Shown: positions 46-12,732 of the stretch, in pieces
Layout of the letters: each line of letters opens with the position of its first letter
Position numbering within the stretch: position 1 is the stretch's first letter
From: an uncultured Sphingomonadaceae bacterium
Lineage (GTDB): Bacteria > Pseudomonadota > Alphaproteobacteria > Sphingomonadales > Sphingomonadaceae
Direction of reading: 5' to 3'
NCBI GenBank assembly: GCA_947494305.1
Contig: CANLUL010000002.1
Span: 491,727 to 555,726, forward strand
DNA: 64,000 nucleotides
The notes under the pieces: model-generated
Seen by the model: the letters and a program-made list of their open reading frames with translations, nothing else
The model's database searches: none
Told to the model about the DNA's origin: nothing
Made by a program: the position numbers and the translations under genes

Positions 46-1179
46 ATGGATTTCGAATTTACCGACGAACAAAATATGGTGCGCGACGGGATTTCGCGTT
101 TGATCCGTGAAGAATATGATTTCGACACACGCCGTGAAGTTGTCGCTAGCGATAGCGGTTGGCGGCCTGAACTTTGGGCACAGCTAGCGGAACTGGGTAT
201 GCTTGCTGCTCCATTCAGCGAAGCCGACGGCGGTTTTGGTGGTGCGACCGAAGCGATGATCATCATGGAAGAATTTGGCAAAGGCCTGGCGGTTGAGCCG
301 TTCATTCCGAGTGTCGTTTGTGCCGGTGGTTTCCTGAAACATGGCGGCAATGACGCACAGCGAGAGGAATATATTGGCGGGATCATCTCTGGCGAGAAAG
401 TCTTTGCTTTCGCCTATGCAGAACCGCGCGGTCGCTATGATCTGGCGAACCTCGAAACCTCGGCCAAAGCTGATGGCGGCGACTATGTGATCAACGGTCA
501 CAAAGCAGTCGTCGTTGGTGCGCCTTGGGCTACTCACCTGGTTGTTACTGCGCGAACCTCTGGCGGTCAGACCGATGCCAACGGTATCTCAGTGTTTGTC
601 GTTGCGAAAGACGCCGATGGCGTGTCCACTCGCGACTATGCAACCGTCGATGGGCGCCGTGCCTCAGAAGTATATTTTGAGAATGTAAAAGTCTCTGGCG
701 ATGCATTGATTGGTGAAGCAGATAATGGTCTGCCGTTGATCGAAAAAGTGGTTGATGAAGCGACTGCTGCCGTCTGTGCGGAAGCGACAGGGGCGATGAA
801 AATTACCAACGAAACCACGCTCGACTATTCGCGTCAGCGTAAACAATTTGGCGTTGCCATCGGTTCGTTTCAGGTGCTGCAGCACCGGATGGCCGATATG
901 CTGATGGAATATGAGCAAGCTGTGTCGATGACTTATCTAGCGACCATTAAACTGGATGAAGATGCAGTTGAGCGGAAGAAGAATGTCTCTTCGGCCAAGG
1001 TTAAAATCGGTCAGGCTGCGCGCTTCATCGGTCAGGCTGCGATCCAGACCCATGGCGGCATGGGCATGACCGACGAGCTGGCAGTGGGCAGCTATTTCAA
1101 GCGGCTTTCGATCTTCGAAAGTGAATTTGGCAGCGTCGATCATCATATGCGGCGCCATATCAAATTGGTTGCCGGTTAA
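46..1179 (+). CDS. Acyl-CoA dehydrogenase (pimeloyl-CoA dehydrogenase small-subunit-like)
   Basis: FAD-dependent alpha,beta-dehydrogenation of an acyl-CoA thioester, cytoplasmic. The 377-residue protein has the usual ACAD layout: helical N-terminal domain (about 1-115), middle beta domain with a YVINGHK stretch near residue 150, and C-terminal helical domain with SRQRKQFG (FAD contact) and QTHGGMGMTDE near residue 340. AAGGGG at 31-36 is a good ribosome binding site 9 bases before ATG 46. A stop codon at 17-19 could end an upstream partner gene, since small-subunit ACADs usually follow a large subunit, but too little is visible. The canonical C-terminal catalytic Glu context (YEG) is replaced by FESEFG, as in divergent two-subunit ACADs. 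Substrate is not predictable here; a hairpin terminator follows directly. Confidence 0.88.
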   Translation: MDFEFTDEQNMVRDGISRLIREEYDFDTRREVVASDSGWRPELWAQLAELGMLAAPFSEADGGFGGATEAMIIMEEFGKGLAVEPFIPSVVCAGGFLKHGGNDAQREEYIGGIISGEKVFAFAYAEPRGRYDLANLETSAKADGGDYVINGHKAVVVGAPWATHLVVTARTSGGQTDANGISVFVVAKDADGVSTRDYATVDGRRASEVYFENVKVSGDALIGEADNGLPLIEKVVDEATAAVCAEATGAMKITNETTLDYSRQRKQFGVAIGSFQVLQHRMADMLMEYEQAVSMTYLATIKLDEDAVERKKNVSSAKVKIGQAARFIGQAAIQTHGGMGMTDELAVGSYFKRLSIFESEFGSVDHHMRRHIKLVAG

Positions 1180-1204
1180 GATAACGATACATCCTATCAA
1201 TTAA

Positions 1205-1238
1205 GGGGGGATGGCCACGCTGGCTCTCCCCTTTTTTT
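1205..1238 (+). terminator. Rho-independent terminator after the acyl-CoA dehydrogenase
   Basis: A GGGGGGA arm (1205-1211) pairs with TCTCCCC (1225-1231), and an inner GCCA/TGGC pair closes a CGC loop, with a two-base bulge. Seven T residues follow (1232-1238). It lies 26 bases after the acyl-CoA dehydrogenase stop and before the MFS gene. Confidence 0.85.
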
Positions 1239-1274
1239 GTGTCTAGACTAAAGCATCCTTTGGAGAGGGTGCGA

Positions 1275-2564
1275 ATGAGTAAATCCAGCGGTGCTGCGTC
1301 GGGCGGTGTCTATCGATATTATGTGCTGATCATGCTGATGTTGACCTTCATGTTCAACATCACAGATCGCATGGTGATGTCGATCCTGATCGAGGATATA
1401 AAGGCAGACTTCACGCTTTCAGACACGCAAATCGGCTTGTTGGCGGGTACTGCATTTACGATCTTCTATGTTATTCTTGGCATTCCCGCTGGGCGGCTGG
1501 CGGATCGCACCAATCGCAAGAATATGGTGGCTATTGCTGTAGCTCTGTGGAGCGTGATGGCCGCGTTATGCGGTGTCGCAATCGGTTTCTGGACACTGTT
1601 TTTGGCACGGCTGGGTGTTGGCATTGGCGAGGCAGGCGGTAGTCCGCCATCGGTCTCGCTGATCACAAATTATTTTGAATCACACGAGCTTTCAAAGGCG
1701 ATGGGAATCTTCTCGGTCGGCGCTGTTCTCGGCCCCGTTCTGGGGTTTGTAGCCGGTGGCTTGCTGGCTGAAGCCTATGGCTGGCGCTGGACATTTATCA
1801 TCCTTGGGCTACCTGGAGTTCTGGTCGGCGTGATAATATTTTTTACGATAAAGGAACCCAAGCGCGGGCAAATTGCGACACGTGAGACGCAATCAACACA
1901 GGTCACGGAGCAGGAACCATTCATGGTGACCATGCGTTCTTTGTGGCAGAATAAATTGTTCACGCGGGTGGTCATTTCCCAGATGCTGGCCGTTACTGCG
2001 TCCTATGCTTTTGCCATCTGGTTGGCACCTATCCTAATCCGCAACTACGAAGTACCGGTCTCTCAAATCGGGATTTATCTGGGTATAGTATGGGTTTTGG
2101 GCGGCGTCCCCGGGATGGTGTTGGGTGGATTTTTAACCGACAGGTTATCTGCCAAAAATCCAAAATGGCGGGCCTGGTTTTGCTCGATTGTCCTGCTGCT
2201 TTCCTTACCGCTCTTGTGCCTCTGCTTGCTCACCGACAACCTTATGTGGGCACTGGTTCTATATACATTTGGATATGGGTTACATTCATCCACACAAGGC
2301 CCCGCAATTGCAATGATGCAATCTTCTGTTGCGCCTGCGGAACGTGGTACAGCCTCCGCTGTCGGAAGCCTAGCCACCACATTTCTAGGATATTTTCTTG
2401 GACCAGCGGTTGTTGGAGCCATTAGCGACTCCCTTGCCGCCGACCATGGAACATTGTCGCTCAACTATGCAGTAATTGCGATTACCATCATCAGCATAAT
2501 TCCTGCGATTATCACCTATCTATGGGCGAGCCGCGCGATCAAACCGTTAAAGGTCAACACCTAG
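1275..2564 (+). CDS. MFS transporter, spinster-like family
   Basis: Major facilitator superfamily permease of the inner membrane with about 12 hydrophobic segments; 429 residues from ATG 1275. That start is chosen because GGAGAGG at 1262-1268 lies just upstream; an in-frame GTG at 1239 overlaps the terminator and has no ribosome binding site. The loop after TM2 carries GRLADRTNRKN, the MFS signature, and a short linker near residue 205 separates the two halves. Proteins with this SPPSVSLITNYF stretch are usually annotated as spinster-type transporters in sphingomonads, where they sit beside catabolic dehydrogenases, as here. The substrate (lipid, terpenoid or aromatic) is inference only. The stop overlaps the opposite-strand gene by four bases (CTAG). 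Confidence 0.87.
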   Translation: MSKSSGAASGGVYRYYVLIMLMLTFMFNITDRMVMSILIEDIKADFTLSDTQIGLLAGTAFTIFYVILGIPAGRLADRTNRKNMVAIAVALWSVMAALCGVAIGFWTLFLARLGVGIGEAGGSPPSVSLITNYFESHELSKAMGIFSVGAVLGPVLGFVAGGLLAEAYGWRWTFIILGLPGVLVGVIIFFTIKEPKRGQIATRETQSTQVTEQEPFMVTMRSLWQNKLFTRVVISQMLAVTASYAFAIWLAPILIRNYEVPVSQIGIYLGIVWVLGGVPGMVLGGFLTDRLSAKNPKWRAWFCSIVLLLSLPLLCLCLLTDNLMWALVLYTFGYGLHSSTQGPAIAMMQSSVAPAERGTASAVGSLATTFLGYFLGPAVVGAISDSLAADHGTLSLNYAVIAITIISIIPAIITYLWASRAIKPLKVNT

Positions 2565-3097
2565 TTCCATTGTTCGACCACGACCGACCATCCGGCAAAC
2601 GGCCGCGTGTTGTTACCTGAATTTTTATAGCCGATATGCCCGTCAATTCGGTAACCTCGACTATTATAGCGCAGTTCGGATATCGGACTCTTGTCCTCAA
2701 ACAATACCCGCATGCTGTAGTCGCGATGTTCTCTGTCTGCAGAACTGTCTCGAAACTCAGCAATCCCTTTATAGGATTTACCGTTGGCCGTGGAGAGCAT
2801 GGCTTCGCTTGCACAGCGCCCTTCCGGAAATTCACCGGCCTGATTCATGGGTTTGCTATCAACGCCCAATATCATCCATTCGGCCTTTTCATCTGCATTC
2901 TCTTCTCTACCAACGATGGTCAGAATCCGGAAAACATCCCCGCCAAATGTTAACCCCGTCTTCTCTTTCTCGCTTAATGGTCTGCGATTGTCGCAATCGG
3001 TTGACGCCACATAGCGATCATAACGCCAGCCATTTTCCGTCCTGACTTCTCCGGCAACTGAAGCGAGCATCAGGCTGAGACCAACTGATAGGGTCAC
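2561..3097 (-). CDS. Hypothetical secreted protein
   Basis: 178 residues from a GTG whose last two bases overlap the TGA stop of the upstream SDR (GTGA), so it is probably translated from the same message. The first 16 or so residues are hydrophobic and end at a plausible signal-peptidase site (ASVAGE), suggesting export. Two Cys remain in the mature part (near residues 34 and 94), possibly a disulphide. No family recognised; the protein is polar, with no catalytic motif visible. A later start would remove the signal peptide, so GTG 3097 is preferred. Confidence 0.6.
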   Translation of the reverse strand: MTLSVGLSLMLASVAGEVRTENGWRYDRYVASTDCDNRRPLSEKEKTGLTFGGDVFRILTIVGREENADEKAEWMILGVDSKPMNQAGEFPEGRCASEAMLSTANGKSYKGIAEFRDSSADREHRDYSMRVLFEDKSPISELRYNSRGYRIDGHIGYKNSGNNTRPFAGWSVVVEQWN

Positions 3098-3831
3098 AGT
3101 AACAAACCACCATCAGCGACGATTGTTTGACCGACAATATAACCGGCCAGAGGTGAGCAGAGAAAGAGCGCCAATCCCGCCATATCATCGGGGTCACCAA
3201 TACGTCCCACCGGAATACGCCGGATTGTGCCTTCTCGTCGCTTGGGATTCTCCGTCGTTACCTTGGTCATTTTGGTGGCGATCAGGCCTGGCGCTATGCC
3301 ATTGACGCGGATCCCATCAGGCGCCCATGCCTTGCCCAATGTACCTGTCAAACCCATCGCACCGGTTTTAGATGCATTATAGGCGGGATTGCCAACGGTG
3401 GCATGAAAGGCCGCAGTGGAACTGACAATGATCATCGAGCCCTTTGCTTCTTTGAGCAAATCGTAAAACTCTCCGCCACAGGTCATGATGCTGTTCAGGT
3501 TGACCTGTATCACCTTGGCAAAATTCTCTGGTTCAAACTCTGCACGTTTGTACATGACCATGCCTTGCGAGCAGATCAACACATCCAGCTTGGCAAATTT
3601 CTGACGAAGAGCGGCAATCGCGGCGTCATCGGCTGCGTCCAATGAATGGTAAGTTAGGCCTTCAAAATCAGAACCGTCTTGTTTCCGATACTCACTCTGA
3701 TCAGCTCTCGTTCCCGTCACATGAACATCGGCGCCGCATTGCCGAAACGCCTGTGCGGTCGCATTGCCAATGCCTGCTGAACCGCCAATGATGCAAACCG
3801 TCTTGCCACTATAGTCGAGTGAAATATCCAT
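3094..3831 (-). CDS. SDR family oxidoreductase
   Basis: Short-chain dehydrogenase/reductase using NAD(P)H, 245 residues, normal for classical SDRs. Visible motifs: IGGSAGIG at residues 15-22 (variant of TGxxxGxG with the first Thr replaced by Ile), Ser 137/138 in VSSTAAF, and the catalytic YNASK with Tyr151 and Lys155, followed by the GIAPGLIATKM loop. The canonical NAG structural motif is CSQG instead, a divergence. It is divergent from the second SDR at 3921 with about 90 bases between them, and coupled to the secreted unknown downstream. Substrate unknown; a hydroxyacyl or alcohol intermediate of the local catabolic cluster is inference. Confidence 0.87.
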   Translation of the reverse strand: MDISLDYSGKTVCIIGGSAGIGNATAQAFRQCGADVHVTGTRADQSEYRKQDGSDFEGLTYHSLDAADDAAIAALRQKFAKLDVLICSQGMVMYKRAEFEPENFAKVIQVNLNSIMTCGGEFYDLLKEAKGSMIIVSSTAAFHATVGNPAYNASKTGAMGLTGTLGKAWAPDGIRVNGIAPGLIATKMTKVTTENPKRREGTIRRIPVGRIGDPDDMAGLALFLCSPLAGYIVGQTIVADGGLLL

Positions 3832-3920
3832 CTATTCTATCTCCTGCCTAATCTGATATTGGCCGAACAGTAAGCGATGGTCTACAGCCAAATCAAACAA
3901 TGACATGAAGGCACAACGCT

Positions 3921-4691
3921 ATGGACATTCCTTTTTCCCTAAAAGGCCGGACGGCACTAATTGCCGGTGCATCATCCGGCTTTGGCGCGCACTTTGCTGA
4001 GCTGCTTTCCAAAGCGGGCGCCAATGTGGTTCTGGGTGCGCGGCGCCCGGACCGGATTAAGGATCTGGCGGGGAGTATCAATAAATCTGGTGGCAATGCC
4101 CTGCCGGTTGCGCTTGATGTGACGGACGAGCAGTCTGTCATCGCGAGCTATGACGCCGCCGAAGCGAGATTTGGCACAGTCGATACAATTATTGCCAATG
4201 CTGGATTGAGTGCATCGGGTCGGACGACTGAGCTTCCGCTCGACGATGTTCAGCGGCTGGTCAATACCAACTTCATGGGTGTTTACTCGGTTGCGCGCGA
4301 AGGTGCGAAACGACTTATTGCAAGCGGTAGTAGGGAGAAGGAAAACGGCCGGATCATCATTATTGGCTCGATCACATCACGGCTCAACGCGAATGGCGAT
4401 GCCGCCTATGCCGCAACCAAGGCTGGGGTTACGCATCTAGGCCGCAATATGGCGCGCGAATGGGTGCGGCAGGGTGTAAATGTCAACACTATCCATCCCG
4501 GCTATATTCCGACAGAGATTCAGGGTGACTGGTATTCTACCGCTGGCGGCGAAGCGCAGATTGCCGGTTTCCATCGTCGGCGTCTGCAGGATATCGAATC
4601 TCTGAACGACATGATTCTATATTTTGCATCAGATCGATCACGCATGGTCACCGGCGCTGATATTGTCGTCGATGACGGGCAATCGCTTTAG
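3921..4691 (+). CDS. SDR family oxidoreductase
   Basis: Classical short-chain dehydrogenase of 256 residues. AGASSGFG at 15-22 is the cofactor loop, NAG at 93-95, Ser150 in IIIIGSITS, and catalytic Tyr163/Lys167 in YAATK are all present. The Arg pair after beta-2 (GARRPDR, residues 39-45) suggests NADP preference by family rule. The C-terminus VTGADIVVDDGQSL is the usual SDR ending. It is transcribed away from the SDR at 3094-3831 and converges with the HMG-CoA lyase downstream, 14 bases away. No substrate can be assigned. Confidence 0.87.
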   Translation: MDIPFSLKGRTALIAGASSGFGAHFAELLSKAGANVVLGARRPDRIKDLAGSINKSGGNALPVALDVTDEQSVIASYDAAEARFGTVDTIIANAGLSASGRTTELPLDDVQRLVNTNFMGVYSVAREGAKRLIASGSREKENGRIIIIGSITSRLNANGDAAYAATKAGVTHLGRNMAREWVRQGVNVNTIHPGYIPTEIQGDWYSTAGGEAQIAGFHRRRLQDIESLNDMILYFASDRSRMVTGADIVVDDGQSL

Positions 4692-4705
4692 TTTCTGAGC
4701 AATTT

Positions 4706-5623
4706 CTAAGCCTCCGCACGCGCCACTAGAGATGGCAGCTGGCGATCCATGATACCGGCAAACCATTGGTTGGTATCAATGGCTTTGCGCAAATCAAGGC
4801 CGTGTTGAACGCCTGATCGGTTGAGCAGATTTATCAAATCTTCCGTGGCGATATTGCCCGTTGCGTTGGGCGCAAACGGACAACCGCCCAGACCCCCTAA
4901 GCTAGAATCCAGCGTTCTTACGCCAGCCTGAACCGCCGCCCAGGCATTGCCAATCCCGGTGTTGCGTGTGTCATGAAAATGGGCGCGCATACTGATATGG
5001 TCGGGCAATATCTCGCGCAATCGACTAAAAAGATCTTCCACCTGAGCCGGAACGCCCACGCCAATCGTATCGGCCAACGCGATTTCCAATGGTTCTTCTT
5101 CGGCCATTTCCTCTGCGATCTGCAGTACGGTTTCCGGTTTTACTTCGCCTTCAAACGGGCAGCCGAAAGCAGCAGATATCGTCACCTGTGCCTTTAGCCC
5201 TTCGGCTTTGGCAAAGCGTATCATATCCCTATTTTCTTTGATCCCTTGCTCAATGGTTTGACCTTGATTTTTTTGGCCGAAAGTATCGCTAGCGACAATC
5301 ACGCAACCGGCTTCATCAATGCCGCGTTTATTTCCCTCACGCGTTGCCAATCCCCGCAAAACACCCCGCTTGTTGAGGCATAGTCCAATATAGGAAACAT
5401 CGTTGCGATCCTGCAGACCCGCAATAACTTCCTCGGCATCGGCCATTTGTGGAACCCGTTTCGGGTGGACGAAACTGGCCACCTCCAGACGCCGGCTGCC
5501 GGCATCGATCATCCGGTTTATCAGTCCCAGTTTATGCTCGGTAGAGATGATGTCAGGTTCATTCTGTAAGCCGTCACGTGGACCAACTTCCAGAATTTCT
5601 ATGGATGTACTCTGTTCTGTCAT
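4706..5623 (-). CDS. Hydroxymethylglutaryl-CoA lyase
   Basis: Cleaves (S)-3-hydroxy-3-methylglutaryl-CoA to acetyl-CoA and acetoacetate, the last step of leucine and some isoprenoid catabolism; divalent-metal TIM barrel of the DRE-TIM family. 305 residues, normal length. EVGPRDGLQNE (residues 12-22) carries the catalytic Arg and metal Asp, HFHDTRN gives metal-binding His residues, and GLGGCPFAP contains the mobile-loop catalytic Cys typical of HMG-CoA lyases. It stands apart from the usual liuABCD partners, so whether it serves leucine or another branched acyl-CoA (lyases acting on related 3-hydroxyacyl-CoAs look alike) is open. Confidence 0.88.
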   Translation of the reverse strand: MTEQSTSIEILEVGPRDGLQNEPDIISTEHKLGLINRMIDAGSRRLEVASFVHPKRVPQMADAEEVIAGLQDRNDVSYIGLCLNKRGVLRGLATREGNKRGIDEAGCVIVASDTFGQKNQGQTIEQGIKENRDMIRFAKAEGLKAQVTISAAFGCPFEGEVKPETVLQIAEEMAEEEPLEIALADTIGVGVPAQVEDLFSRLREILPDHISMRAHFHDTRNTGIGNAWAAVQAGVRTLDSSLGGLGGCPFAPNATGNIATEDLINLLNRSGVQHGLDLRKAIDTNQWFAGIMDRQLPSLVARAEA

Positions 5624-5666
5624 AGGCTCCTCTTAGCGCCTACGTTCGGCAATTGAAAATCCATCT

Positions 5667-7427
5667 CTAGTTTTTCTCCACCAGTTGATAGATTGGATAG
5701 GTTCCATATCCTTTGGCAAATTCGATTTTCCCAGCATAGCGACAGCGATATTCATCCGGAGCTTCCAACGCCAATATGGCAGCAAATGGTTCGGTCACAA
5801 AAACGGCTCCAGGTGGTGTGACGGGTTCAATGCGCGCAGCGCGAGATACTTCGGTGCCATAGAGAGTAATCTTTCCGGTGATGGGATCCATGGTTTCATA
5901 GGCTGGACCATAATGTAAGCCGATGCGCATGCCACTGCTTTCAGTCATGCCCAGCAAGGCATAGTCAAAATTTTGCAGAGAGGTTTGCAATTCGAGCGCG
6001 AGGCTGGCGGCACAGGGAGCATCGGGTGTCACAGCTAGCAAGGCATCACCCCAGCTATTTTGAGCCAATATTTGACCCGGATAGTTCAACAGAACTTTGG
6101 CCATATTTCCCATCACGCCTTCCCAAAAAGCGGGTAAAGCTGATTCAGATAACTTTGAAAAACCGGGAAAGTCGGTGAATAATATCGCAGCGACGGTCCG
6201 TTTGTGGACATCTTCATCTGGGGCTTGTGATCGACCCAGATCACGTTTTATGTCGCCTGCTTCAATGACTTCCGATGATCCGCTATAGTTCTGCCAGGCA
6301 GCAACATCCGCTCCTGTTCCAGCTGGGCCATTGGAAGGTACGCCATCCCAAATCGCAAGCTGTGTTGGTTTATTCCCGAGATATTGCGCGCGTAATTTGG
6401 CCATGCCCATGGCGACTTTGCTTGCGTAGCCAAATTGTTCCGGGTCGCCGACATAGTGCATTTCTGTTGCGAAATTGATGCTGTTTGCTTTGGCTAGGCA
6501 GGCATCAAATCGTTTTAACCAATTACCGCCAGCTGGCACAACGGACTGTGCTATGAAATCTTCCTGAACGAACGGGAAAATGACGTTGAGTTCTGCGCCG
6601 TGCTCCAAAATTTGTTCAGCAATCAAAATATCGGAACCAGCTGCCAATGCACCATAGGCATAGCCGACATCATTTTTCTCCAGATAATCGGCGATGTTTT
6701 TTATCAGCTTCTCTTCTTCAGTGTCATCCTCAAGAAACATATGACCGCAAAAATGTATCACTGTTGGGGGAGACACGGGGCTAAGGAGTTGATCAACGGT
6801 TTCTTGATCTAACCCGGCTTCCCTTGAAACTATTTTTAGCTGTTTATAGCTGCTTGCCCGCGCGCCCGCATTGGCATCAGACATTACACCGGCTTTTTGC
6901 AAACTTTCAGCTGCCTCATCCATACGACCAGCTATTAACAAAGCCTCGGCGCGGGTTGCTGCATCATAGTAGTTTAGCGGTTTTGTAATTTCCGCCAGAT
7001 CGAGAATTGTTTTTGCTATATCTGCTGCTGTATCTTTCTTGCCACCCAAAAAAGCCAGAGTGGCGGCATTGATACCGGGGTACGCATCTTCGCTCTCGTC
7101 AAATATCTCGTGATAGGCTTGAGATGCAGCAAGCAGAGCGGCAGGTCGTTCTGTTTCATCTTTGGTGGCTAGCGCTGCATCCTTCATAATCCGTGCAGCA
7201 ATACTGCGATGATGCGCATCGGGTGATTTATCGAGTTCAAACTCCCGAAACAGTTCCAGTGCCTGTTCCCCGTTGCCCATGCGGGCCAGAGCCAGAACCA
7301 TCAGATGCCGAAGTTCGCTACTCGTGTCGCCGTCATTGATCGCCGACACGGCAAGATCATAAGCACGAAGCAGATTACCACTATCAATGGCTGATTTGGT
7401 TTGCTCTGTTGCTGTGACGGATGACAT
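5667..7427 (-). CDS. TPR / SLOG-like / class III nucleotide cyclase-like protein
   Basis: 586 residues in three parts. Residues about 1-215 are alpha-helical TPR-like repeats; YPGINAATLAFLGG near 116-129 resembles the TRAFs-binding (DUF4071-like) region. Residues about 221-370 look like a Rossmann nucleotide-binding fold of the SLOG/LOG kind (GALAAGSDILIAE, then LNVIFPF). Residues about 409-586 are a class III nucleotidyl cyclase homology domain: metal Asp419 (ILFTDFPGFS) and Asp461 (SWGDALLAV) are 42 residues apart as usual, and Arg532 (AARIE) is kept. The ATP-selecting Lys position is Asn457, the partner Asp position about Thr521, and the transition-state Asn is Ser528, so product and activity are uncertain. 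Its ATG overlaps the TIR gene stop (TAATG), so the two are translationally coupled. No membrane segment; probably cytosolic and recruited to the TIR partner (inference). Confidence 0.78.
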   Translation of the reverse strand: MSSVTATEQTKSAIDSGNLLRAYDLAVSAINDGDTSSELRHLMVLALARMGNGEQALELFREFELDKSPDAHHRSIAARIMKDAALATKDETERPAALLAASQAYHEIFDESEDAYPGINAATLAFLGGKKDTAADIAKTILDLAEITKPLNYYDAATRAEALLIAGRMDEAAESLQKAGVMSDANAGARASSYKQLKIVSREAGLDQETVDQLLSPVSPPTVIHFCGHMFLEDDTEEEKLIKNIADYLEKNDVGYAYGALAAGSDILIAEQILEHGAELNVIFPFVQEDFIAQSVVPAGGNWLKRFDACLAKANSINFATEMHYVGDPEQFGYASKVAMGMAKLRAQYLGNKPTQLAIWDGVPSNGPAGTGADVAAWQNYSGSSEVIEAGDIKRDLGRSQAPDEDVHKRTVAAILFTDFPGFSKLSESALPAFWEGVMGNMAKVLLNYPGQILAQNSWGDALLAVTPDAPCAASLALELQTSLQNFDYALLGMTESSGMRIGLHYGPAYETMDPITGKITLYGTEVSRAARIEPVTPPGAVFVTEPFAAILALEAPDEYRCRYAGKIEFAKGYGTYPIYQLVEKN

Positions 7428-8440
7428 TAATCAGCAGCAGTTTCTGCCATTTCTTCCGCTTCGCGCTGCATTGCCTTTCGCTGACGCATGATCTTGATAG
7501 TGACCATGGCAGCAGGAACGCCGAGCGCGATGATACCAAAAGCAATCCAGAAAACATCACCAAGCCCACCATAGCCTTTGATCAGTTGATTCAGTGGTTC
7601 CCAGATGAATTGAATCGTAACGAACCAAAGGAGAAGCGCCAGATAGATGGCAATTTTATCGTTCAGAACAATCCCAAGGCCGGACAGACTGTCTGACTTG
7701 TTCTTGCCGCCAGATGCTTCTCTATACCGTTGTAGTTCTGCATCGGCTTGTTGCTGACCGGATTGTGCTTCGTCCAGTTCACGTTTTAATCGCACCAATT
7801 CGCGAGCATTGGTCGCCACCTCTCCAGATTGGGCTTTGGACGCAGTGGAAAGTTCGGCCAATTCCGCTTCAAGCGCAGTCCGTTTTGCTTTTTCGCTAGC
7901 AAGCTGCCCGCTCATATCGGGATTGGCACTCTCTACAATTTGATCAATAACTTCCGGGACCAATGGGTCGGTCGGATAACGCGCGATCCAGTTTTTCCAA
8001 TCGGTAACGGTCGCCTTGGTCTTTAAGCGGGTATAGTCAACCAATCCGGGGCGATCGAGCAATTCACCAATCCGTTCCAATATGCCGAGCCAGACCGAGT
8101 TGTCTGTTCCCTCGGCTCCTTCAGCTAGAACTTCGGCTTGTACGGAACGAAATTCCAAAGGCAATGTGCACGGGGTCAGCTGTACCGCGATCAGCCCGCT
8201 TTTCTCTTTTCCGGTCCGCGCTTCGTTGCGCACCCAATCCGACTCGACCGAATCTTCACTCCACAAGACGAGCAACGCTTTCGCAGCATCAATTTCACGT
8301 TCGATTTCGCGGTCAAAGGAAGAGCCCGCACCAATACCTGCATCGAACCAGACGCTAACTTTCAGGCTATCCAAAATGTCGCGAATGGCTGTGCAGCGCT
8401 CCCGATCATTGCGTGAGTAGCTGATGAAGATATCCGCCAT
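7427..8440 (-). CDS. TIR domain membrane protein with coiled coil
   Basis: 337 residues: N-terminal TIR domain (about 1-125), a linker, a long coiled coil (about 176-243), and two transmembrane segments (about 262-281 and 295-317) with a short charged C-terminus. TIR landmarks are FISYSRND (5-12), WFDAGIGAGSSFDREIE in the BB-loop region (31-47), and SDWVRNEA with Glu73 at the position of the NADase catalytic Glu in enzymatic TIRs. By family knowledge such TIRs hydrolyse NAD or act as assembly modules; sequence alone does not decide. The TIR and coiled coil would face the cytoplasm with a C-terminal hairpin anchor. First gene of a two-gene operon; its TAA shares one base with the ATG of the cyclase gene. 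No cyclic-nucleotide-binding domain is visible. Confidence 0.83.
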   Translation of the reverse strand: MADIFISYSRNDRERCTAIRDILDSLKVSVWFDAGIGAGSSFDREIEREIDAAKALLVLWSEDSVESDWVRNEARTGKEKSGLIAVQLTPCTLPLEFRSVQAEVLAEGAEGTDNSVWLGILERIGELLDRPGLVDYTRLKTKATVTDWKNWIARYPTDPLVPEVIDQIVESANPDMSGQLASEKAKRTALEAELAELSTASKAQSGEVATNARELVRLKRELDEAQSGQQQADAELQRYREASGGKNKSDSLSGLGIVLNDKIAIYLALLLWFVTIQFIWEPLNQLIKGYGGLGDVFWIAFGIIALGVPAAMVTIKIMRQRKAMQREAEEMAETAAD

Positions 8441-8516
8441 AATATTGCCCTGCCTACCTATTGATGTCAGCTGCTATAATCGGCTCCGCGCGCCAGAACA
8501 AGGCTAGCCGCTTGCT

Positions 8517-9029
8517 TTACATTTTTCGATATAGCGGATGTTTGGAATCAGCGCCTTCAAGCATATTCAATGTAAAGCCGCTATCCAGCATCTCTTGGCA
8601 TCCATCATCAAACGCCGTGCGCCATTCCAACAGATAGGCGCGTTTGGAAATTCGCCATTCACCGTCGCGCTTTTCAAACTCGTCGAGATATCGGCCACCG
8701 ATCAAGCTGCCTTTTGGTCCTTCGCCGTTGCGATCGGCGATGCTCGCGGTCAAGCCATAGGTTTCTGCGCTTGCTTTCGTCTCGGAATGGATCGTGATTT
8801 GCGTGCCCGCACCACCATGCCAGCGCCGCTGAGTTCCGCGTTCAACTTCGATGACCACATCGACAAAATCTTCGGCTTTGCCCCGGAAGAATCCATAGTC
8901 GATATCGGCGTCGGGCCAATAGACCGTGCGGTGGGATTCGGCATCAATCCAGTCCAGTGTCCGGGCATATCGGAGCAAGACTTCTTCGATGGCTTTTTTG
9001 TCGAGCAGTTCCTGTAGCGCCTTGTCCAT
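8517..9029 (-). CDS. SnoaL-like / NTF2-like fold protein
   Basis: 170 residues from ATG 9029. This start is preferred because AGGAA lies 7 bases before it; ATG codons at 9053 and 9035 lie inside the upstream gene with no good spacing. The pattern (helical start IEEVLLRYARTLDW, then GTQITIH, RYLDEFEKRDGEWRISKR) is that of the SnoaL_4 / nuclear transport factor 2 family, which contains steroid isomerases, dehydratases and ring-hydroxylating dioxygenase small-subunit-like folds. Proteins of this kind accompany aromatic or steroid catabolic genes in sphingomonads. It follows the ABM-domain gene almost directly, and both follow a P450 gene on the same strand. Confidence 0.8.
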   Translation of the reverse strand: MDKALQELLDKKAIEEVLLRYARTLDWIDAESHRTVYWPDADIDYGFFRGKAEDFVDVVIEVERGTQRRWHGGAGTQITIHSETKASAETYGLTASIADRNGEGPKGSLIGGRYLDEFEKRDGEWRISKRAYLLEWRTAFDDGCQEMLDSGFTLNMLEGADSKHPLYRKM

Positions 9030-9031
9030 TT

Positions 9032-9433
9032 TCATTTCCTGTTGGTCCACCATCCCGCCATATCGAGAGGAAATCGCTCTTGCGCGATCATCAAATTTTC
9101 GTCGGCATTCCCTGGAAGTGCGGGGTCTGTTGTGGGTTCCAATCCCCCGCCGGCACCCTCGACCGGATCGACATATTCCAATCGGATATCCGCCAGCACA
9201 TCAGCAAAATCATGGCCTTCGTGATGATCGGACATTTGGTGCCGGTAAAATGCCCATTTGTCATCGAAGGAAAGCAGGCAATAATAGAAGTTATCTTCCT
9301 GGCCTTTCCAGTACTCATAGCGTTTTACACCGGTTTCAGTGGCGAACGTCTGTTCCACCATATCCGCCATGATGGTTTCCCACTTTTCCGATTTTCCGGG
9401 TTTGATCTTTATATGGGCAAGCAGGGTTGTCAT
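9032..9433 (-). CDS. Antibiotic biosynthesis monooxygenase (ABM) domain protein
   Basis: 133 residues. The first 95 residues match the dimeric alpha-beta barrel ABM fold (LLAHIKIKPGKSEKW, then GVKRYEYWKGQEDNFYYCLLSFDDKWAF). ABM proteins include cofactor-free monooxygenases and many uncharacterised accessory proteins. The C-terminal 35 residues (PTTDPALPG onward) form an extension not typical of the minimal 95-residue fold. It lies 9 bases after the P450 stop and just before the SnoaL-like gene, so the three are a likely operon. No active-site assignment is possible. Confidence 0.75.
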   Translation of the reverse strand: MTTLLAHIKIKPGKSEKWETIMADMVEQTFATETGVKRYEYWKGQEDNFYYCLLSFDDKWAFYRHQMSDHHEGHDFADVLADIRLEYVDPVEGAGGGLEPTTDPALPGNADENLMIAQERFPLDMAGWWTNRK

Positions 9434-9442
9434 TATTCTCTC

Positions 9443-10726
9443 CTAAGCCGGGGTGAATGTCAGGTTGAGTTTGTTCGTGCCCAGCATGATTCCGGGTTGG
9501 TGCAGGAAATCATTGCCTTCACCATATTGGATGTCATCCAGGAGATCGAGCAGCCGGTTCCATGCGATGGTTTGTTCCAGCCGGGAAAGGCCCGCCCCTG
9601 GGCAGACGCGCGGACCGGCGGAAAAAGCAAGGTGCCGGGTTGCTGCCTTTCGGTCCAGTTTTAAGGCCTTGGGTTCTTCAAACGCATCGGGATCGACATT
9701 GGCCGCACCATATCGCAAATGGAGAGACGAACCGGCGGGTATGTTCACGCCCTGAAACACTTCATCTTTCGAAGTTATGCGTGTCGACAAGCCTTGCGTT
9801 GGTGAACGTAGTCGCATGCCTTCCTCGATAAAGGTGCGCAACAGACTTCGGTCTGCTTTGAGTTTTTGAAACAATCCAGAACGTTCGCATATCAGTTGCG
9901 CTTGTTCTGCTATGGCATATTGTGTGGTCTCAAGTCCGCCAATCACCATGGCATAAACGACTCCGTTTATCTCTTCGTCAGTCAGCTTGCGATCAAGCGC
10001 TTGATAGTGAACCTGGGTCAGAAAGCTGATCATGTCATCCTGAGGATCGGCGCGTTTTTCTTTTACCTTTTCGCGCACATAGTCAGAGAAACCATCGAGC
10101 AAGCGAAACTTCTCTTTCGTCTGTTCTTCGGTCAACTTGTTGTTGTGCCCGCAGCCATGGACATAAGACATGACCTGCGCATTGCCCCAGATTTCAAGTT
10201 GTGCAACATCCTCCAAAGGAAAGCCCAAAACCGAGGCCATGGTGCGTTGCGGTAGCGGACGAGCAAACTGTTTTACAAAATCGACGCGCTTATCGCCGAT
10301 CCACTGATCGATAAGATGATCAACATGGCCGGTTATCATGGCTTCATGCCTACTGGCTCCGGGGCCGACCCAGGGATCGGTCAGTTCCTGCCGATGCGCG
10401 CGCCATAGTTCGGGGGTGGGCCGAAGGGAGCAGATGGAAATGATCATGGCATCCAGATCAGGCATTTCCTGCGGCAGTTTCCCTTCCGCTTCTATCTGTT
10501 TGACCAAAAGGGATAATGTTGGGGGAAAGCGATCCCAATCCTTTACCACGCGCGAGATATCTTCGTGCTTTGTGAGAATATACGCGTCTTTATCGGGCGT
10601 CAGACCCTGTCCGGCAATACGAAATACCGGCGCCTGCGCATGCAGAATATCATAAGCTTCGTACCAGTGCTCCGCGGCGCCAGTTCCGAAAAGATCGACA
10701 TCGTCAAGAGAAGCGGGACAGTCCAT
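9443..10726 (-). CDS. Cytochrome P450
   Basis: Soluble bacterial class I P450, 427 residues, haem-thiolate monooxygenase. Visible: I-helix VIGGLETTQYA (the oxygen-activating acid/Thr pair is E-T-T), K-helix EEGMRLR (ExxR), and the haem loop FSAGPRVCPGAG with the Cys ligand. It needs a ferredoxin and ferredoxin reductase, neither of which is encoded in this window. First gene of the minus-strand set P450-ABM-SnoaL. It diverges from the carboxymuconolactone-decarboxylase-like gene at 10859, leaving about 130 bases as a shared promoter region. Substrate unknown; the neighbourhood suggests terpenoid, steroid or aromatic oxidation (inference). Confidence 0.9.
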   Translation of the reverse strand: MDCPASLDDVDLFGTGAAEHWYEAYDILHAQAPVFRIAGQGLTPDKDAYILTKHEDISRVVKDWDRFPPTLSLLVKQIEAEGKLPQEMPDLDAMIISICSLRPTPELWRAHRQELTDPWVGPGASRHEAMITGHVDHLIDQWIGDKRVDFVKQFARPLPQRTMASVLGFPLEDVAQLEIWGNAQVMSYVHGCGHNNKLTEEQTKEKFRLLDGFSDYVREKVKEKRADPQDDMISFLTQVHYQALDRKLTDEEINGVVYAMVIGGLETTQYAIAEQAQLICERSGLFQKLKADRSLLRTFIEEGMRLRSPTQGLSTRITSKDEVFQGVNIPAGSSLHLRYGAANVDPDAFEEPKALKLDRKAATRHLAFSAGPRVCPGAGLSRLEQTIAWNRLLDLLDDIQYGEGNDFLHQPGIMLGTNKLNLTFTPA

Positions 10727-10858
10727 GGGACCAAGCGCGTGATTGGGTGATTTTTCCAGACCGGCCTCTCCTCAGAATCTTGATCAAAACGTCAGTTCCT
10801 TGCTTCTCAAATAGCCCTATCTTGACTGTCAGAGCTATTGGTAGATTGGAGAGGGCCT

Positions 10859-11446
10859 ATGAGCCGGTTAGAAAAAATTGCACCAGAAGATTGGGATCCG
10901 AGACTGAAGGCTGCGATACAACCCGAAAATCTGTCGGACCTCGAACAGGGACTAAGTCGGTATTTTGCACATTGTCCTGACCAGGCATTGGGATTGATGC
11001 AATTCGGTGGTGCCCTCAAAATGAATCGCCAGCTCTCTGACCGGCTGGTTGAGCTGGTGCGATTGCGCATCGCTTTTTTTAATCAATGCCGCAGCTGTAT
11101 GGCGATCCGCTATAGTGACGCAGTCGAAGATGGCGTCGATGAAGGTGCGGTCTGTTCGCTCGAAAAACCCCAGGAAGCTGACAATCTGAGCGACGCGGAA
11201 AAAGTCGCTATCCGTTTCGGTGAGTTGATGGCGACGGACCATCTGGCCATAGATGATGCGATCTATGAAGAACTGCGCAAGCATTTCAACGAAGCACAGA
11301 TTGTTGAGCTCGGCATGACATGTGCCTTTTTTGTCGGCTTTGGCAGGCTGGCTGCCACCTGGCACATGGTGGAAGAATTGCCTGAAGCGTTTCAGTCGGC
11401 GGAAACCATTGCCCCATGGGGCGAAGAGAAAATTCAGGTTCGTTGA
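10859..11446 (+). CDS. Carboxymuconolactone decarboxylase / AhpD-like family protein
   Basis: 195 residues from ATG 10859, with GGAGAGG at 10847-10853 as ribosome binding site; an in-frame start at 10838 lacks one. The core RLVELVRLRIAFFNQCRSCM holds the AhpD-type CxxC (Cys77, Cys80), but the His that normally follows in CxxCxxxH is Arg, so peroxidase chemistry through the classical triad looks altered. The second half (ADNLSDAEKVAIRFGELMATD) is the second helical part of the fold. It lies 11 bases before the next P450 gene, so they are cotranscribed. The role may be thiol-based reduction or decarboxylation of a P450 pathway intermediate; this is inference. Confidence 0.83.
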   Translation: MSRLEKIAPEDWDPRLKAAIQPENLSDLEQGLSRYFAHCPDQALGLMQFGGALKMNRQLSDRLVELVRLRIAFFNQCRSCMAIRYSDAVEDGVDEGAVCSLEKPQEADNLSDAEKVAIRFGELMATDHLAIDDAIYEELRKHFNEAQIVELGMTCAFFVGFGRLAATWHMVEELPEAFQSAETIAPWGEEKIQVR

Positions 11447-11457
11447 AGGAAGAGAAT

Positions 11458-12732
11458 ATGACCAGCGATAGCGAGCTAGACGTCAATCTTTTTGATGTGG
11501 AAACACAGCAATGCCCATATGATGCCTATAAAAAACTCCGGGATGACGCCCCTGTCTACAAACAACCCGGCACCGATATCTATATCGTCACCCGCTATGA
11601 AGATGTTCGTACAGTCTTGACCGATCCCATTCGGTTCCCAAGTGCGCCGGATCCCGATTCAAAGTTGAAAATGAAATCGGCAAATCAGGACCGGCAACTA
11701 AAGGTCCAACAGCGATTCCAGGAAAATGGTTGGATTCCAGAACCGACATTGGCCAGCCGGGACGACCCCAATCACAAACAGATGCGTGCGATGTTCAATG
11801 AGGCTTTCAAGCCAAGCCGGATCAAGGAGATTGATCCTCTGGTCGAGAATCTGGCTTATGACTTAATCGACGAGTTTATCGAAGATGGCCGTTGTGAGTG
11901 GGTGAAGCAGTTTGCGGTTCCACTGCCGCTGTTCATTATCGGCGAGCAAATGGGTGCCAAACGGGATGATATGTGGAAGATCAAGCGCTGGACCGATGCC
12001 TTTTTCCAACGCATCTCGATGATGCTGCCTGAAGAGCTGGAAATGGAGATGGTCGATCGCGAGATCGAAGCGCAGCACTATTTTCAACCGATATTCGAAC
12101 GGTTGCGCGCAAATCCGGATGCCTCTCTGATCAGCGTATTGGTAAACCGTGTTATCGAAGGTTGGGGACGGCCTTTGAACGACAATGAGCTGCATGCGGA
12201 GATGATGGCGGATACATTTGTCGGCGGTAGTGAGACAACCACAAATGCATTGGCCGCTGGTATGAAGCTCTTGATCGAGAACAAGGACGTCTGGCTGAAG
12301 CTGAAAAATGATCCTCACCAATATATGAAGACATTTGTCGAAGAAGTGGTGCGTTTGGAATCACCCGTACAAAGCCTCATGCGTTTTGCCGGTAAGGATG
12401 CAGTGGTTGGTGAAACTGAAATCCCGGAAGGGGCTCTCATAAACGTGCGCTACGCTGCTGCTAATCGGGATGAGCGGATGTTTGAATGCCCGGAGCAAAT
12501 CGACCTGGATCGCAAAAAAGCCGGGGCGCATATGGGGTTTGGATCAGGGATTCATCATTGTCTGGGGGCGCCCCTGGCACGGCGAGAATTAACCTGGGGT
12601 TTCACGGCGATCGTCGATCGTTTTGAAGATATGTGGTTTGCCGAAGGAAAGAATGATTTTGAATATCACCCGCACTTCCTTTTGCGCAGCCTAAAGGAAC
12701 TGCACATAGAGTTTCAGCCCAAAGCTCCATAA
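11458..12732 (+). CDS. Cytochrome P450
   Basis: 424 residues from ATG 11458, with GAAGGAAGAG just upstream. I-helix TFVGGSETTTNALA, K-helix EEVVRLESP (ExxR), haem loop FGSGIHHCLGAPLARRE with the Cys ligand. It is a different subfamily from the P450 at 9443-10726: the haem loop has HHCLG instead of RVCPG and the N-termini do not align well. Cotranscribed with the AhpD-like gene. No redox partner genes nearby. The substrate cannot be predicted; two P450s side by side suggest successive oxidations of one scaffold (inference). Confidence 0.9.
   Translation: MTSDSELDVNLFDVETQQCPYDAYKKLRDDAPVYKQPGTDIYIVTRYEDVRTVLTDPIRFPSAPDPDSKLKMKSANQDRQLKVQQRFQENGWIPEPTLASRDDPNHKQMRAMFNEAFKPSRIKEIDPLVENLAYDLIDEFIEDGRCEWVKQFAVPLPLFIIGEQMGAKRDDMWKIKRWTDAFFQRISMMLPEELEMEMVDREIEAQHYFQPIFERLRANPDASLISVLVNRVIEGWGRPLNDNELHAEMMADTFVGGSETTTNALAAGMKLLIENKDVWLKLKNDPHQYMKTFVEEVVRLESPVQSLMRFAGKDAVVGETEIPEGALINVRYAAANRDERMFECPEQIDLDRKKAGAHMGFGSGIHHCLGAPLARRELTWGFTAIVDRFEDMWFAEGKNDFEYHPHFLLRSLKELHIEFQPKAP

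Follow-up and report, generated by a model that had tools for sequence, protein, structure and literature searches.

To our knowledge, the known TIR systems end either in the destruction of nicotinamide adenine dinucleotide (NAD+) or in an effector that the TIR product opens. Burroughs and Aravind (2020) are said to have predicted TPR-S/pNTSase1 cassettes to be immune systems, and their abstract reportedly predicts that the TPR scaffold recognises NAD+-derived signals. An excerpt of PMC11204291 provides a precedent for TIR-SLOG signalling in Thoeris, and Pycsar, according to excerpts of PMC11224242, combines class III cyclases with effectors of the TIR or membrane type. Here we analyse a two-gene locus that shares features with each of these, on a 64,000-nucleotide stretch (the window) of contig CANLUL010000002.1 (positions 491,727 to 555,726, forward strand; assembly GCA_947494305.1) from an uncultured Sphingomonadaceae bacterium. 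Gene 1 encodes a membrane TIR protein, and gene 2 a protein with TPR-S, SLOG and class III nucleotidyl cyclase parts. Our tentative reading, which we hold at somewhat below even confidence, is that the two genes form one module, in which TIR input would be followed by TPR-S/SLOG sensing, cyclase output and a Crp-type reader.

Domain architecture of the gene pair

Both open reading frames (ORFs) were confirmed, their starts taken as the first start codon, and the stop of gene 1 and the start of gene 2 share one base, as the first-pass annotation had it. Family counts below refer to 131 members (130 deduplicated relatives and the window protein), and a cyclase is called intact when D419, D461 and R/K532 are all kept. 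The features of the pair are:

7427..8440, minus strand: gene 1, membrane TIR protein (ORF, 337 amino acids; PF13676, E=4.5e-18)
8051..8434, minus strand: TIR domain, about residues 3-130 (Pfam match 4-101; conserved alignment block; outer limit by eye)
8222..8224, minus strand: codon of Glu73, presumed NADase catalytic Glu (invariant in 77/77 aligned TIR proteins)
7706..7918, minus strand: putative coiled-coil stretch, about residues 175-245 (by eye)
7598..7675, minus strand: predicted membrane helix 1, within residues 256-281 (hydropathy peak 1.88)
7496..7552, minus strand: predicted membrane helix 2, about residues 297-315 (hydropathy peak 2.15)
5667..7427, minus strand: gene 2, TPR-S/SLOG/class III cyclase protein (ORF, 586 amino acids; AlphaFold model, predicted local distance difference test score 94.4)
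6816..7427, minus strand: helical TPR region, residues 1-204 (TPR-S match, PF20308, 27-125; all-helical in the model)
6258..6785, minus strand: SLOG domain, about residues 215-390, with the loop YGALAAGSD
5670..6212, minus strand: class III nucleotidyl cyclase domain, residues 406-586 (PF00211, 36.1 bits, cut-off 21.9)
6171..6173, minus strand: codon of Asp419, metal ligand 1 (D/D/[RK] set kept in 101/131 members)
6057..6059, minus strand: codon of Asn457, in the place of the usual base-selecting Lys (N in 95/101 intact members)
6045..6047, minus strand: codon of Asp461, metal ligand 2 (same set, 101/131)
5832..5834, minus strand: codon of Arg532, presumably the transition-state Arg (R in 99 and K in 2 of 101 intact members)

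The earlier calls of a TIR protein with a membrane hairpin and of a partner with TPR, SLOG and class III cyclase parts, together with the catalytic residues named for both, are supported by Pfam, hydropathy, predicted folds and the conservation given above. Gene 1 also exceeds the cut-off of ThsB_TIR (PF08937; 27.9 bits, cut-off 21.2) and matches the PADLOC ThsB model (E=7.1e-07). S67 and V70 are invariant along with Glu73, whose catalytic role we take from the TIR literature, in all 77 aligned TIR proteins (that of the window and 76 partners of intact cyclases). Coiled-coil-type Pfam matches are weak and below cut-off in the window protein and in that of L106. Going by the basic tail that follows membrane helix 2, both ends of the protein are probably cytoplasmic.

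In gene 2, the TPR-S match reaches 47.7 bits (cut-off 27.6), and 36 of 42 aligned relatives match this family at E<=0.001. Since cyclase rows filled the structural comparison of the whole 586-residue model, the middle part was folded alone; its predicted fold was found to be a SLOG Rossmannoid fold, with YpsA the closest by a second structural aligner. Foldseek by itself gave weak rows (best E 8.3e-05), with many triosephosphate isomerases further down, and a sequence search of this part against the PDB gave nothing meaningful (best E 0.12). SLOG residues are invariant in an alignment of relatives that mixes intact and decayed cyclases. The YpsA-like SLOG clade is said, in an excerpt of PMC9503650, to include members that sense cyclic ADP-ribose.

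Conservation of the partnership

An order-wide search of 296 genomes placed relatives of gene 2 in 65, counting that of the window, and 60 loci were fetched from 59 of the other 64 (G071, G073, G146, G203 and G224 left out). In a scan of one genome per species across 84,980 species, 281 relatives were confirmed and the 80 best retained; these 80 come mainly from Sphingomonadales and Phenylobacterium, and also from Kordiimonas, Maricaulis, Arenimonas and Hwanghaeella. Removal of 10 duplicates from the 140 loci left 130. In a sample of the phylum, the SLOG family was found at E<=1e-5 in 21 of 398 genomes, own included.

Of the 130 relatives, 101 have a TIR gene within 2.5 kb; 34 of these 101 also have a linked Crp gene and 67 do not. 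The TIR model used for this count was built from the same neighbourhoods; by Pfam, all 76 TIR partners of intact cyclases match TIR_2, and the other 25 were partly checked. The co-conservation expected by the first-pass annotation was thus borne out for these 101 and not for the other 29, eight of which have a linked Crp. The gene neighbourhoods point to a partnership that is conserved, though not obligate, because of these 29. TIR gene placement varies (upstream overlapping, downstream, divergent or convergent), and the TIR-cyclase link has therefore been rearranged repeatedly. Among the five closest named relatives, four (L105, L106, L107 and L109) have the tight pair, and all window-type loci of the first fetch carry the D/D/R set.

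A lineage of proteins of about 400-435 amino acids (L055, L058 and L059) aligns only to residues 226-582, without the TPR region, and is still paired with TIR. Unlike these sister loci, related SLOG-cyclases at L056, L057, L061, L179 and L183 (ORFs of 394-527 amino acids) have no adjacent TIR gene; in one genome with such a TIR-less locus (G163) a close TIR is encoded at another site. In a Novosphingobium, a single SLOG-cyclase gene is preceded by two TIR genes (L184:3941-4996 and about 1 kb upstream), an arrangement that may be compared with the multiple thsB copies of Thoeris. On a Caballeronia plasmid (L250:4529-7683) we noted a distant TPR-S cyclase of 29% identity with a seemingly altered SLOG loop; its overlapping upstream neighbour, which has no Pfam match, looks by eye like a lipoprotein and not like a TIR protein. 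A six-frame search flagged one in-frame stop each in two relatives, L014/L043/L164 and L023. In L164 (the genome of L043) the stop lies between the SLOG and cyclase parts, and it was the C-terminal piece that entered the counts. Two loci were scored as non-intact: L063, which a contig end truncates, and L094, which hardly aligns.

The wider cassette and linked decay of cyclase and Crp pocket

In many cousins the TIR-TM-TPR gene is followed by a gene of about 145-270 codons, then by the TPR-S/SLOG gene and finally by a Crp gene in convergent orientation. Among five of the short middle proteins, pNTSase1 (PF20301) was matched by two (L083, E=1.1e-65; L048, just at cut-off) and not by those of L086, L052 and L047. 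The linked Crp of L048, the one Crp so tested, has cyclic mononucleotide (cNMP)-binding and helix-turn-helix domains.

In one lineage the cyclase residues are gone, and so is the Gly-Glu...Arg-Ser/Thr pocket of its Crp. The pocket is intact beside 16 of 17 intact cyclases and lost beside 25 of 25 non-intact ones; in the exception, L141, the Crp is an upstream 230-residue ORF with a weaker match to the model. The Crp of L166 is a 125-residue ORF piece, and that of L047/L168, with an intact pocket, lies about 2.7 kb away, outside the distance limit. TIR genes are found within 2.5 kb of 25 of 30 loci with non-intact cyclases, against 76 of 100 with intact ones. As TIR is kept beside so many non-intact cyclases, its presence is, on this comparison, independent of the cyclase.

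With regard to the product, in class III adenylyl cyclases a base-selecting Lys usually lies four residues before the second metal Asp. This canonical ATP-specificity Lys is absent from the window cyclase, which has Asn457 there; F417 and W459 are kept in all 101 intact members. In linked Crps with an intact pocket the base-contact place, which we take to be that aligned with CRP Ser128, is occupied by Thr in 15 of 16, the other (L166) having Ser. Excerpts of PMC11224242 associate Ser or Thr at this place with cyclic AMP, and on that ground the linked pockets lean towards cyclic AMP as the putative product. The same excerpts give F100/R142/Q144 (R142 four residues before D146) for EaPycC and Y50/D94/R97 for BcPycC as base-selecting residues, and F417/N457/W459, placed by spacing, fit neither of these sets.

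TIR partners as putative receptors

Exactly one membrane helix was found, by a simple hydropathy cut, in 63 of the 76 TIR partners of intact cyclases. Charge balance across all 101 TIR partners places the TIR domain inside with a tail longer than 60 residues in 65, the opposite way in 5, and gives short tails in 5. Beyond the TIR domain, the 77 proteins carry TPR_12 (38), SH3_3 (20), YARHG (19) and FHA (4), and the C-terminal part is LprI in L108 and CHASE2 in L163. Many of these partners look like receptors, going by C-terminal parts that vary as would be expected of receptors. None of the 25 families listed for the 77 proteins is a cNMP-binding domain (eight further families, with at most two members each, are unlisted).

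The CHASE2 fusion (L163:2670-4685) comes from a Hwanghaeella metagenome-assembled genome and is divergent from its SLOG-cyclase gene. In the window's own genome, a further TIR protein lies about 140 kb from the pair (L002; G000 C2:639307-639627), and its C-terminal sequence resembles, by eye, the SH3-YARHG partners of Sphingopyxis-type loci.

Genomic context and distribution

Within the window's genus the SLOG family occurs in 22 of 32 genomes, with one match each. The tight window-type pair is present in four (the window's genome, G308, G318 and G325). Seven genomes have a cyclase of 63-64% identity without the window-type TIR; two of these, L230 and L233, were listed gene by gene, and both have a divergent upstream TIR. 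Eleven have a short open frame of 476-557 amino acids. The three other tight pairs are 82% (TIR) and 71-74% (cyclase) identical to that of the window, and their stretches of 6.5-13.5 kb lack its flanking genes save for distant dehydrogenase matches in L229 (26-28%). Since it is patchy in the genus and its flanks are not shared, the pair seems to move or to be lost as a unit.

None of the ten scanned neighbours of the window pair matches a PADLOC model, which bears out the earlier remark that no defence genes adjoin it; by Pfam they serve metabolism or transport and include neither pNTSase1 nor Crp. Positions 46-12732 of the window look catabolic (acyl-CoA dehydrogenase, major facilitator superfamily transporter, two short-chain dehydrogenases, HMGL-like lyase, SnoaL-like, ABM monooxygenase, CMD and two cytochrome P450 genes) and are unrelated to the pair. 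No phage record among 50,697 contains a relative, 3 of 72,556 plasmid records do, and of 10 pattern matches in viral contigs none was confirmed as a relative. In base composition the pair lies inside the range spanned by its flanks, no tRNA was found in the window, and scans for promoters and terminators came out near chance (5 found, 3.5 expected; 6 found, 3.4 expected).

Proposed relay and rival explanations

On the basis of the domains, predicted folds, conserved catalytic residues, conserved partnership and linked decay observed above, we infer the NAD+ chemistry, the SLOG ligand, the direction of signalling, the cyclase product and the receiver in this genome as follows. The membrane-anchored TIR protein, once triggered, would make an NAD+-derived nucleotide, as the conserved Glu and knowledge of the TIR family suggest. 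The TPR-S/SLOG part would sense this nucleotide, or perhaps the TIR protein itself, and sensing would switch on the attached class III cyclase. The resulting cyclic mononucleotide would be read by a Crp-type regulator, encoded adjacently in many cousins and presumably acting in trans in the window genome. A fuller version, with two second messengers in series, seems to us doubtful: a TIR receptor with an interchangeable sensor end would send a cyclic ADP-ribose-type signal to a SLOG-gated cyclase and on to Crp-dependent transcription, and one lineage would have lost the cyclase step and the Crp pocket together while keeping TIR and SLOG.

Several observations weigh against the relay. None of the SLOG families of Pfam matches the SLOG part of the window protein, LD_cluster3 is matched by one of 42 members (E=0.083), and ThsA is not among the structural rows listed for this part, although that absence rules nothing out. 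Of the 29 relatives without a TIR gene within 2.5 kb, 24 have an intact cyclase, and in L108, also among the five closest named relatives, an opposed TIR-LprI gene replaces the tight pair. The receptor picture is not universal, since the window TIR protein has a C-terminal hairpin without an outer domain and the FHA-type partners are hardly membrane receptors (that of L041, in the same genome region as L142, has a marginal helix only); charge balance moreover gave 20 ties and 6 proteins without a helix. The window-type lineage has no adjacent Crp, and the best of 8 cNMP-binding matches in the window genome scores 100 bits against the linked-Crp model, compared with 222-282 bits for the linked Crps of five phylum-search loci. 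Two of the eight, L096 and L095, show an apparent pocket motif by eye. The window genome has one other class III cyclase match, and its single TPR-S match is that of gene 2. On a tree of 61 sequences built with the cyclase columns excluded, there is one cyclase change and two pocket changes, making one independent pair. Given this single change on the tree, a Fisher test of cyclase against pocket (p ~1e-10) was not relied on. The linked decay fits a Crp that would read the cyclase product, but it is a single event and no numerical proof.

The same relay might serve envelope or stress sensing with a transcriptional response, and not phage defence, a possibility whose chances we put a little short of even. 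The domains of the Crp tested, the several TIR C-terminal parts that look extracytoplasmic, the metabolic and transport neighbours without a PADLOC match, and the near absence of relatives from phage and plasmid records all agree with such a role. Patchy occurrence is, however, common for defence modules, and the pair is patchy here, being tight in 4 of 32 genus genomes with the window's flanks missing from the other three. The immune role reportedly predicted for TPR-S systems by Burroughs and Aravind (2020) also counts against a pure stress response.

TIR domains can also act as scaffolds, so that a TIR adaptor might bind the TPR/SLOG protein directly and membrane clustering might switch the cyclase with no diffusible NAD-derived messenger. 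TPR-S is a repeat scaffold, gene 2 just reaches the MAP3K_TRAF_bd cut-off (24.1 bits), and the stop/start overlap suggests co-translation. We nevertheless consider direct contact unlikely: a pure adaptor would have no need of the invariant S67, V70 and E73, and the lineage without the TPR region still pairs with TIR.

Signalling might instead run in the direction given by the first-pass annotation, with the cyclase as sensor and its cyclic nucleotide, or a SLOG ligand, switching an NAD+-destroying TIR. Catalytic residues are intact on both sides, and Pycsar, in the excerpts of PMC11224242, joins class III cyclases to TIR or membrane effectors. Such a scheme is nonetheless improbable. No cNMP-binding domain is seen on the window TIR protein or among the families listed for the TIR partners, an adjacent Crp is a ready cyclic-nucleotide receiver in the cousins, and TIR, which persists beside decayed cyclases, would not be expected to outlast the loss of a cyclase that drove it. 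The more likely direction runs from a TIR signal, sensed by SLOG, to the cyclase as output, because of the receptor-like TIRs, the retention of TIR without an intact cyclase and the ready Crp receiver. That the two genes are neighbours without a common function is most improbable: TIR accompanies 101 of 130 relatives in varied strands, sides and TIR architectures and the tight pair recurs in four genus genomes, notwithstanding the 29 relatives without TIR.

Comparison with known systems

A literature search covering titles and abstract openings, with most subscription papers beyond reach, returned no description of this gene pair, nor of the SLOG fold of the middle part, an N-[ST]-W-G-D cyclase, receptor-like TIR partners or Crp-linked decay. 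The parts and the general idea have likely been predicted already; Pfam names TPR-S and pNTSase1.

Like Thoeris (ThsB TIR with ThsA SIR2-SLOG), the locus combines a TIR protein, matching ThsB_TIR over cut-off, with a SLOG-bearing partner. It differs in that the SLOG part is joined in one protein with TPR-S and a class III cyclase instead of SIR2 and has no STALD match, and in that the TIR protein is membrane-anchored with a coiled coil. Gene 2 matches neither SIR2 nor a macro domain in Pfam, nor any PADLOC or NCBIfam model, at E<=1. STALD (PF18185) is outside the 15 Pfam families matched by any of 42 members at E<=10, whereas a STALD search of 142 genomes carries no weight, as it gave no match anywhere, controls included. 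Membership of Thoeris was ruled out, there being no SIR2 or other ThsA form, no STALD and no PADLOC match on the partner.

With Pycsar (PycC with PycTIR or PycTM) the locus shares a class III cyclase, both metal Asp residues present, beside a TIR/membrane protein. The cyclase carries TPR-S and SLOG parts, the residues near the metal ligands are not those given for EaPycC or BcPycC in the PMC11224242 excerpts, and the TIR protein has no cyclic-nucleotide-binding domain (PF00027, no Pfam match at E<=1). This absence, by which membership of Pycsar was ruled out, agrees with the distinction drawn in the first-pass annotation.

The TPR-S/pNTSase1 cassettes (PF20308, PF20301) resemble the locus in their TPR-S part, over cut-off here, and TIR neighbour, and two tested cousins carry pNTSase1; the window pair differs by its intact-looking cyclase and by having neither pNTSase1 nor Crp among its ten neighbours. 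The Crp-bearing cassette of Kordiimonas and other cousins makes the relay idea directly testable.

One relative's TIR protein (L163) carries CHASE2, a sensory domain that is usually found attached to cyclases or kinases. In contrast to CHASE2-type membrane receptor cyclases, receptor and cyclase are here two proteins, and any link between them would run through TIR and SLOG. A two-step signalling relay of this kind would be an unusual design. If the reading is true, a TIR signal feeding into a cyclase and a transcription factor would bring together two fields of messenger signalling that are mostly studied separately, and would provide a bacterial parallel to receptor-TIR signalling that alters gene expression instead of killing the cell.

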